Shown: positions 41,568 to 43,681 of the stretch, piece by piece
Layout: every line of letters begins with the position of its first letter
How positions within the stretch are numbered: the first letter of the stretch is position 1
Assembly: GCA_003105035.1 (NCBI GenBank)
Contig: PQAL01000033.1
Coordinates: 265,613 to 329,612, forward strand
DNA from: Anaerolineales bacterium
GTDB taxonomy: Bacteria; Chloroflexota; Anaerolineae; Anaerolineales; UBA4823
Reading direction: 5' to 3'
DNA: 64,000 nt
Position numbers and translations under genes: made by a program
The notes under the pieces: generated by a model
What the model was told of the DNA's origin: nothing
The model's database searches: none
The model's input: only the letters and a program-made list of their open reading frames with translations

Positions 41568-42731
41568 TCAGTTGTGAATGCGTGCTGCTGGAGCAACCCT
41601 AGGGATTGTCTGTATGGCTTCAAAACCAGCTAATTTTCGCCTCTCCACGGCACGCCCCAATAAGCGCTCAATCGTTTTTACCATCGGCAGGTCATCCTGT
41701 GTAACAAGGGTGAGGGCAGTTCCTTGCCGGGCCATACGTCCGGTTCGGCCGATGCGATGGGTATAAGCATCGAGCGTATCGGGCATATCAAAGTTAATTA
41801 CATGTGAGATTTGCGTTACATCGATCCCGCGTGCTGCAATATCTGTGGCAACCAATATCTTGATCCTTCCGGAACGGAAACTGTCCATCGCTTGCTGCCG
41901 CCGGTTTTGAGATAGATTTCCTTGCAGCGAGGTGGCTGGTAGACCTGCCTTGACGATCTGCTCGGCCAGCTTTTTTGCGCGGTGTTTCGTCCGGGTAAAG
42001 ACCAACACCTGACCACTGCCCGACTTACGCAGCAAAGCCAGCAGCAGCTCTGTTTTATTGGTCTGATCCACTGAGTACATCGCGTGTCCAATCGTCTCTA
42101 CCGGGCGGGTGACTCCCAGATCAACCTTCACCGGATGGTCCAATAGCTCATCTGCTAATGAGCGGATTTCAGTCGGCATAGTGGCTGAGAACAATAAAGT
42201 TTGGCGTTGTTTGGGTAAGGCGGAAAGGATCCGGCGAATATCGGGTAAAAATCCCATATCGAACATCCGGTCGGCTTCATCAATGACCAGGATCTCAACT
42301 CGGCTAAGGTTGACCACATTCTGGCCCATCAGGTCCAGCAAACGACCGGGGCATGCGACCACAATTTCCGTCCCTGCCCGTAACCCCTTGATCTGGGGTT
42401 GGTTGCTGACGCCGCCATATATGGTCATACTATGAAAACCGGTCTGGCGTCCCAGCATCGCAATGGTGGTGTGGGTCTGTTCAGCTAGCTCGCGGGTGGG
42501 AGAAAGGATGAGCACACGCAGCTTTCCCCGCGGTCCGCTAAGTAATTGCTGCAACATGGGCAAGACAAAAGCGGCGGTCTTCCCCGTTCCCGTCTGGGCT
42601 AAGCCCAATACATCACGACCCTCCAGGATAGGAGGTATGGTATGAAGTTGAATAGGTGTAGGTGTGGAATAACCAGCACTGGAAATTCCCGCATTGATCT
42701 GCGGGTGAAAAGCAAATGAAGAAAAGTTCAC
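41568..42731 (-). CDS. DEAD-box ATP-dependent RNA helicase, RhlE-like
   Basis: A 387-residue RNA helicase. All core motifs are present: Q motif (GYSTPTPIQ), motif I AQTGTGKT, PTRELAEQ, VIDEADRM (DEAD), SATMP, then in the second RecA domain VFTRTKHRAK, ATDIAARGID and HRIGRTGR. The start is taken as GTG 42731 with AAGGA 7 nt upstream, since the family begins just before the Q motif and the upstream extension (to 42875) is not conserved-looking. The C-terminus after the core is short. Likely role: RNA unwinding in ribosome assembly or decay, often cold-induced. The long AT-rich leader (over 100 nt) may matter for this. Confidence 0.93.
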   Translation of the reverse strand: MNFSSFAFHPQINAGISSAGYSTPTPIQLHTIPPILEGRDVLGLAQTGTGKTAAFVLPMLQQLLSGPRGKLRVLILSPTRELAEQTHTTIAMLGRQTGFHSMTIYGGVSNQPQIKGLRAGTEIVVACPGRLLDLMGQNVVNLSRVEILVIDEADRMFDMGFLPDIRRILSALPKQRQTLLFSATMPTEIRSLADELLDHPVKVDLGVTRPVETIGHAMYSVDQTNKTELLLALLRKSGSGQVLVFTRTKHRAKKLAEQIVKAGLPATSLQGNLSQNRRQQAMDSFRSGRIKILVATDIAARGIDVTQISHVINFDMPDTLDAYTHRIGRTGRMARQGTALTLVTQDDLPMVKTIERLLGRAVERRKLAGFEAIQTIPRVAPAARIHN

Positions 42732-42921
42732 AAAAAGGTCCTTTTTGGCGTAGTTTGAGCCAAGGCGAACCTTAGCCCGTCCGTGTCCATTACGGATATA
42801 TTTTATCCATTTCAGGAGGGAACGTGGGATTATACCACAAAAAAATATAAAAACACCGAGACTCAGACTTTGCATACAGGAAGTGATCTTACCAATATCT
42901 CACCTTTGGACCAAATAAAAA

Positions 42922-42948
42922 AAACCATAGCCCGACGAGCTATGGTTT
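42922..42948 (-). terminator. Strong minus-strand terminator at the end of the tRNA-fMet repeat region
   Basis: A perfect 10-bp stem, AAACCATAGC (42922-42931) with GCTATGGTTT (42939-42948), is followed on the minus strand by eight T. The stem-loop includes AGCTCGTCGGGCT on the minus strand, a 13-nt match to the D-arm/anticodon-stem region of the tRNA-fMet 230 bp away. Confidence 0.85.
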
Positions 42949-43021
42949 GAGATGAGTAGCGGTGTTTCGGTCAAAAATCGCCCTCCAGATTCCAGTGCTG
43001 TGCTGCAAGGACCTCAAATAA

Positions 43022-43048
43022 AAATCCGTCTAGTGGATAGACGGATTT
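43022..43048 (-). terminator. Terminator inside tandem repeat unit 1
   Basis: AAATCCGTCTA (43022-43032) with TAGACGGATTT (43038-43048), an 11-bp perfect stem with a 5-nt loop. On the minus strand the stem is followed by T-rich sequence. Confidence 0.8.
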
Positions 43049-43120
43049 CGTTGATGAGTAGCGGTGTTTCGGTCAAAAATCGCCCTCTAGATTCCAGTGC
43101 TGTGCTGCAAGGGCCTCAAA

Positions 43121-43150
43121 TAAAAATCCGTCTAGTGGTTAGACGGATTT
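43121..43150 (-). terminator. Terminator directly downstream of tRNA-fMet (repeat unit 2)
   Basis: AAATCCGTCTA (43124-43134) with TAGACGGATTT (43140-43150), 5-nt loop, followed on the minus strand by TTTTTATTT. First of three terminators after the tRNA. Confidence 0.85.
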
Positions 43151-43160
43151 CTTTGATGAG

Positions 43161-43232
43161 TAGCGGGGCTTGGATTCGAACCAAGGACCTTCGGGTTATG
43201 AGCCCGACGAGCTGCCACTGCTCCACCCCGCA
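43161..43232 (-). tRNA. tRNA-fMet (initiator, anticodon CAT)
   Basis: A 72-nt cloverleaf on the minus strand without encoded CCA. Acceptor stem GCGGGG/CCCCGC, D-stem GAGC/GCTC, anticodon stem TCGGG/CCCGA with loop CTCATAA, T-arm CTTGG-TTCGAAT-CCAAG, discriminator A. Three G-C pairs at 29-31/39-41 and an A11-U24 pair are initiator marks. Position 1-72 is U-U, unpaired as needed for initiators, although the usual bacterial mismatch is C-A. The D-loop is two bases shorter than in E. coli. Confidence 0.93.
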
Positions 43233-43288
43233 TCATTTATCTGCCCTTCTCAGAGCGGGCGGAATTATAGCACGCCCCCTGCATGACG

Positions 43289-43681
43289 TCAAGGAGACTT
43301 ATCTGTCTGATCCACAAATAAGGAGAGCCACACCTGCCAGTTCTGGATCACCTGCGGAGTAACCACAGGCGTAGGGGTAGGCTCAGGAGTATAACCAGGC
43401 TGTTGGATGGGTACGACGACAATATCCCCTTCCTTACCGAGATGGCCGTAGTTGTAAGCCCAATAATATACTGCAGCTTCAGAGGTGGCATAGGCCACCT
43501 GGGTTTTCAAGGCTTGCTGTGTATCCACCAGGCTGGTCACGCGCGCGCTCACGCTTTCTTTTTCAGCGGTAAGGCGGCGAAGCTCAGCCATGCGGCTGTT
43601 AAAATCGGTCACCAGTAGGATTAAAACAACGAATCCACCAAGGATCAAAATGGGTTTCAATCCTTTTCGGGGAATTTTCAT
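43289..43681 (-). CDS. FtsB/DivIC-like septum formation initiator protein
   Basis: A 130-residue bitopic membrane protein: a basic start (MKIPRKGLKP), one helix (ILILGGFVVLILLVTDF, about 11-27), a coiled coil (about 30-65), then WAYNYGHLGKEGDIVVVPI, the typical end of the DivIC/FtsB domain. A Pro/Thr-rich tail (about 95-112) and a short hydrophobic end follow. It likely acts in the divisome with FtsL/FtsQ. The gene sits between tRNA-fMet and tRNA-Leu on the same strand. Confidence 0.85.
   Translation of the reverse strand: MKIPRKGLKPILILGGFVVLILLVTDFNSRMAELRRLTAEKESVSARVTSLVDTQQALKTQVAYATSEAAVYYWAYNYGHLGKEGDIVVVPIQQPGYTPEPTPTPVVTPQVIQNWQVWLSLFVDQTDKSP

Follow-up and report, generated by a model that had tools for sequence, protein, structure and literature searches.

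How do three transcription terminators come to stand in a row behind a single initiator tRNA gene? This question is raised by a locus in the window, by which we mean the whole 64,000-nucleotide stretch of Anaerolineales DNA that was analysed; all features of the window described here are read on its minus strand. The tRNA-fMet gene (43160..43232) has the anticodon CAT, with an anticodon stem GGG:CCC that can be read straight off the sequence, and is followed by two tandem units of 102 bp (42951..43166) that are 96% identical and free of indels. Each unit contains a terminator with an 11-bp stem, of the type ATCCGTCTA..TAGACGGAT: that of unit 1 (43124..43150) has the loop ACCAC and a T-rich tail, and that of unit 2 (43022..43048) has the same stem and the loop TCCAC. 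A third, different terminator (42922..42948) has a 12-bp stem. The original prediction had described this arrangement, and the tRNA gene, the tandem units and the three successive terminators are all confirmed.

A promoter-like site with 11/12 matches (TTGACG-17-TATAAT with a TG extension, 43264..43292) lies 5' of the tRNA gene, and a similar TATAAT-like box is also found upstream of tRNA-fMet in many relatives. The region from promoter to tRNA is matched in 26 of 38 genomes of the family; the sequence after the tRNA varies. Farther upstream, the order tRNA-Leu (CAG), small protein gene, tRNA-fMet is conserved in two relatives, G012 and G030. On the other side, the place that is occupied by an integrase gene in relatives is taken by a DEAD-box helicase gene (41568..42875), whose true start is probably other than the first ATG.

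The units had been proposed to be built from the 3' half of the tRNA itself. Beyond the CCGCTAC repeat, such an origin is not established. The sequence CCGCTACTCATC occurs three times in the 64 kb, at the end of the tRNA (43155-43166), at the junction of the units (43053-43064) and ahead of the third terminator (42951-42962), a number that was reached in 0 of 100 shuffled sequences. Of this block, which had been listed as tRNA-like in its entirety, CCGCTAC is indeed part of the tRNA, but TCATC lies outside, in the flank. The other blocks fare less well: the proposed GGAATC matches over only 5 nt because the tRNA reads CGAATC, and GGTCCTTG is present in unit 2 but replaced by GGCCCTTG in unit 1. 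When the inner part of each unit is compared with the tRNA without GCTACTCATC, unit 2 reaches p=0.017 and unit 1 p=0.26 against dinucleotide shuffles (0.02 and 0.26 when rounded), and a comparison with the tRNA halves of 24 relatives gives p=0.08.

The segment behind the units has a much clearer relationship. Positions 42962-42885 align with the left end of an integrase element in G030 (locus L080) over 78 bp with 66 identities (85%, E=8e-19), and the alignment runs from CCGCTACTCATC across the terminator into the leader of the integrase gene, in agreement with two further loci (L017 and L081). In all three loci, the hairpin of terminator 3 stands behind tRNA-fMet. A profile of 27 sequences from integrase loci, which contains no sequence from the genome of the window, finds only the region 42885-42962 in it (E=9.5e-9; the second listed match is the same palindrome read in reverse); this profile included one mis-hit, L089, which was excluded from later tests. 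A terminator and a leader follow directly behind CCGCTAC, as at a left end. By homology, the third segment (42885..42962), comprising CCGCTACTCATC, the terminator and the first half of the leader, is shown to be the left end of an integrase element that targets tRNA-fMet. The extent given in the original prediction, 42922-43232, leaves out positions 42885-42921, where the informative remnant of the leader lies.

This left end is worn. The ribosome-binding site, the start codon and the integrase have all been lost from it, and between position 42885 and the helicase gene tblastn yields only noise and no integrase remnant. An integrase of this subfamily is also absent from the genome of the window, where the best match has 28% identity. 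The att core is the 44 bp on the 3' side of tRNA-fMet that begin in the anticodon loop (CTCATAACC...CCGCTAC), a length taken from the 44-bp half-sites of relatives; in G197, these half-sites are 100% identical to the tRNA-fMet of that genome. At the site only CCGCTAC is left, twice, and since no second 44-bp half-site is found in the window or its genome, the right boundary is missing. Because the integrase is absent here and present at the homologous position in relatives, the window holds a remnant rather than an intact island.

As had been noted before, the stem-loop of terminator 3 shares the 13-nt sequence AGCTCGTCGGGCT (42929-42941) with the tRNA (43201-43213), a match that was never reached in 20,000 random hairpins of the same composition. 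It comes with the element: L080, L081 and L017 have the same terminator. Moreover, leaders of the family share runs of 7.7 nt with the anticodon arm of the tRNA, compared with 5.4 nt in shuffled sequences (0/300), which makes the match part of a family-wide pattern, whatever its cause.

In the relatives, the terminator and the leader adjoin tRNA-fMet directly and are followed by a tyrosine recombinase gene (PF00589), which begins about 100 bp behind the tRNA in G012, G006 and G030. Of 400 genomes of the order, 67 carry this integrase family. Among 70 loci, which are places rather than independent events because some share a genome, a complete tRNA-fMet lies just upstream in 39, and in at least 10 others there is only its 3' half. 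The complete tRNA stands there in 23 of the first 30 loci; among the other 40, a complete tRNA-fMet is found in 16, the 3' half only in 10 (one of them, L129, with its upstream sequence masked), another tRNA in 4 and none within the fetched stretch in 10. The four loci with another tRNA all belong to distant relatives and carry, by anticodon, Gly, Val, Val and Pro. The search for integrase genes near this tRNA in other strains, which had been recommended along with the idea that the locus holds scars of integrative elements, supports that idea: the family inserts repeatedly at this very tRNA, and its left end is preserved in the third segment.

Intact copies also show how such elements accumulate. 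In complete genomes, displaced 44-bp tRNA 3' halves lie downstream of tRNA-fMet in the same orientation at 22.6 kb (G331), 102 kb (G236) and 126 kb (G333). In G197, two elements of 77 and 30 kb form an array with tRNA halves at 77 and 107 kb, in the order tRNA, terminator and integrase, then half, terminator, leader and second integrase, and finally half and plain terminator. The displaced halves show that integration took place; they are the signature of tRNA islands with a crossover in the anticodon loop and of tandem arrays (PMC4383910). Since a terminator stands behind each tRNA end in such an array, removing the bodies of the elements yields terminators in a row.

Other states of this site were also seen. 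In L078 (G012) and L080 (G030), the integrase genes directly behind tRNA-fMet each contain one in-frame stop, which makes them further copies in decay. In G035 (L063/L064, contig C20), two complete 44-bp tRNA-fMet 3' halves lie downstream, at 14 and 25 kb from the tRNA, and no integrase of this subfamily is found in the genome at E<=1e-40; the arrays probably go back to a different integrase or to one since lost. In L035 (G009, contig C20), a second tRNA-fMet-like gene at about position 1532 has a stem-loop insertion, TACCCCAAAGGGGTA, in the T loop and is presumably a pseudogene.

The origin of the 102-bp unit itself is more difficult to read. The distance from the CTA at the end of the tRNA to the integrase start ATGAACCRY is 102 nt in 17, 103 nt in 5 and 104 nt in 4 of 26 leaders, that is, 102-104 nt in all of them. 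The unit is therefore as long as the distance from the tRNA to integrase codon 3, which suggests a decayed leader. Where the leaders have GGAGG.ATTTTT..ATGAACCGC, the interior of the unit ends in TGGAGG..ATTTTTGAC.GAA.CACCGC. In a comparison anchored at CCGC, genomic control sites are as good in 1 of 498 cases for unit 2 and in 7 of 498 for unit 1, and an end-to-end comparison of units and leaders gives p values of 0.02-0.05; note that these tests were designed after the alignment had been inspected, and their p values are therefore flattering. With nhmmer, profiles yield no reportable match on the 67-nt unit interior. As a second left end, then, the unit fits in length, with sequence p values of 0.002-0.05 depending on the test and a negative profile search. 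These results suggest that the unit may be a decayed leader joined at CCGC to the next tRNA end, a reading that we favour over a decayed tRNA half.

The interiors of unit 2 (42963..43021), for which both of these origins are candidates, and of its counterpart in unit 1 (43065-43123) have no clear homologue in 400 genomes of the order or in collections of genome contigs and viral contigs. A mobile repeat was considered and rejected, the matches being no better than chance-level similarity between terminators. A known RNA was also rejected (nothing in Rfam reached the gathering level, and what lay below it was noise), as was a match to another tRNA in L002, which turned out to be the T arm of a different tRNA.

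The main alternative is that the units are decayed tRNA 3' halves with their terminator, left by the displaced tRNA ends of tandem elements and interrupted by short insertions. Displaced halves are common behind tRNA-fMet in relatives, and a candidate for a decayed one is the sequence GGATCCTTGTTTCAATTCCAA at 1643-1663 of L113 (G005), downstream of tRNA-fMet and a terminator. Furthermore, AGGTCCTTG and GAATC precede CCGCTAC in the order of the tRNA, and unit 2 retains its p=0.017 without the repeat. However, unit 1 (0.26) and the halves of relatives (0.08) do not follow, and a stretch of 40 nt would have had to take up two insertions, one of about 12 nt and one of about 23 nt, so that we regard this origin as rather unlikely. 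A simpler proposal is that slippage duplicated the tail of the tRNA with its terminator, and that the 204 bp arose without a mobile element. With 96% identity and a 12-bp repeat on either side, the units are an ideal substrate for slippage, but it accounts only for the step from one unit to two and not for the first unit, which has a terminator unlike terminator 3; besides, the segment behind the units is an element left end that adjoins the tRNA in relatives. Slippage alone is thus improbable. The tandem duplication suggested originally does fit as the last step, for the two near-identical units.

Two further explanations appear still less probable. The units might be functional, as an array of small RNAs or a regulated attenuator driven by the tRNA-fMet promoter. 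The transcribed stretch does fold better than shuffled sequences (z=-4.0), but this value includes the tRNA and the three terminators; there is no Rfam match, the interior lacks homologues that could show conservation, and the small RNA read-out suggested earlier has no support. We consider such a function very improbable. In a draft genome of 43 contigs with 4% contamination, the assembly could conceivably have the repeat wrong, or the number of its copies, but the two units can be told apart at several positions and so are not one unit counted twice, and the contig spans 347 kb and has an upstream flank syntenic with relatives; the probability of an artefact is accordingly minimal.

We consider it probable that the locus preserves, as a fossil, the insertion of elements into the initiator tRNA gene by their integrase. 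The elements recombine at the anticodon loop and bring their own tRNA 3' half, terminator, leader and integrase gene, and each new insertion restores the tRNA while shifting the older tRNA end and the older element downstream. Homology shows that what survives of an older element at 42885-42962 is its left end, with CCGCTACTCATC, terminator 3 and half of the leader, whereas its integrase and right end have been lost. Comparison with relatives shows that a later event then set 204 bp between the tRNA and this left end; as the left end abuts the tRNA in relatives, this fits a further insertion at the tRNA, of which the tandem repeats look like worn-down leftovers. To judge from the junctions, this was most likely a second element that collapsed to its own left end by a deletion between the CCGC in the integrase start (ATGAACCGC) and the CCGC at the next tRNA 3' end, and the remaining 102-bp unit would then have been duplicated across the flanking CCGCTACTCATC repeats. 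Given the leader reading, the near-identity of the units implies that this duplication was recent. Against this history, neither an integrase remnant nor a second half-site is found, the unit terminator is unlike those of known left ends, and the interior is without a clear homologue and only weakly similar to leaders. The reading that suits the window best is that of an array which has collapsed, with the integrase lost, the leader half eroded and 204 bp wedged between the tRNA and the old element end. Its present role is probably only that of redundant terminators behind tRNA-fMet.

The leader of the intact relatives can be described more fully. The consensus of 18 distinct leaders consists of a terminator hairpin, A:B, followed by a hairpin C:D in which arm C, upstream of the ribosome-binding site, pairs with arm D, formed by integrase codons 2-7. 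RNAalifold recovers both hairpins unaided, with two-sided changes in 13 of 22 pairs; 92% of the cells are paired, as against 22-47% when slid. The covariation score exceeds that of all 500 shuffles, which keep the relatedness of the sequences, and the C:D helix stands out on its own as well. When C and D are swapped between loci, 0 of 2000 permutations pair as well as the true combination. Arms A and D are alike and C can pair with either, with permutations as good in 14/2000 (A:C) and 58/2000 (A-D) cases. C:D is intact in the 18 aligned relatives, whereas the window keeps a worn C arm, GGTCCAAAGGTGAG, whose pairing partner is gone. The intact leader matches no Rfam family. It is seen in L080, L083, L087, L105, L099 and other loci; in L099, A and D share a run of 18 nt. 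At L158, where a distant integrase lies by tRNA-Val (CAC), the leader hairpin holds ATCCGTGAGG from the anticodon arm of that tRNA, which parallels the fMet case.

As predicted from its structure, the leader looks like a double lock that guards against read-through from the tRNA promoter: a terminator comes first, and a hairpin then buries the ribosome-binding site. The alternative pairings of A, C and D would also allow an RNA switch. A more speculative possibility, which we put forward tentatively, is that the integrases are controlled by such a switch fed by the initiator-tRNA promoter, in which A and D both pair with C and the arms echo the anticodon arm and att core; the window would then be a dead copy of it.

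The islands themselves are of a known kind. Islander (PMC4383910) catalogues tRNA-targeting genomic islands and tandem arrays, and the intact relatives resemble these in having a tyrosine integrase, a restored tRNA at one end and a displaced 3' fragment at the other, a crossover of the anticodon-loop class, and arrays with one fragment and one integrase for each element. The displaced fragment in the same orientation is found in G197, G331, G333 and G236. Unlike Islander islands, the copy in the window has neither an integrase between the tRNA and a fragment nor a displaced 3' fragment, and since both integrase and right end are lost, it would be missed by an island finder that relies on an integrase lying between the two. 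Among the tRNA-adjacent integrase genes known to be under protein autoregulation is intS of KplE1 (PMC2951348). As in the fMet elements, the gene starts in the att region directly behind a tRNA gene; in KplE1 a protein exerts the control by binding to a promoter that overlaps attL, whereas the fMet elements have an RNA terminator and a hairpin over the gene start. In IS10, IS50 and IS200, fold-back structures inhibit the translation of transposase mRNA in read-through transcripts. The fMet elements are similar in that the gene of a mobile-element enzyme lies near a foreign promoter with a hairpin burying its ribosome-binding site, silencing here being predicted from structure; they differ in that the promoter is always that of tRNA-fMet, rather than any outside promoter, and in that a terminator stands ahead of the hairpin. 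We found no relevant report of RNA-level control of tRNA-adjacent integrases in the open-access literature searched.

The scar belongs, in worn form, to a known kind, and the leader of the intact relatives is the new part. The double lock gives a testable answer to the question of how an element behind a strong tRNA promoter avoids constant integrase production. If the switch exists, read-through of a growth-rate-controlled tRNA transcript, possibly together with integrase binding to the half-site copies, would set the integrase output. The locus itself indicates that runs of terminators behind tRNA genes can form as the sediment of repeated insertions, and offers a means of spotting fossil integration sites from which both integrase and tRNA fragment have gone.
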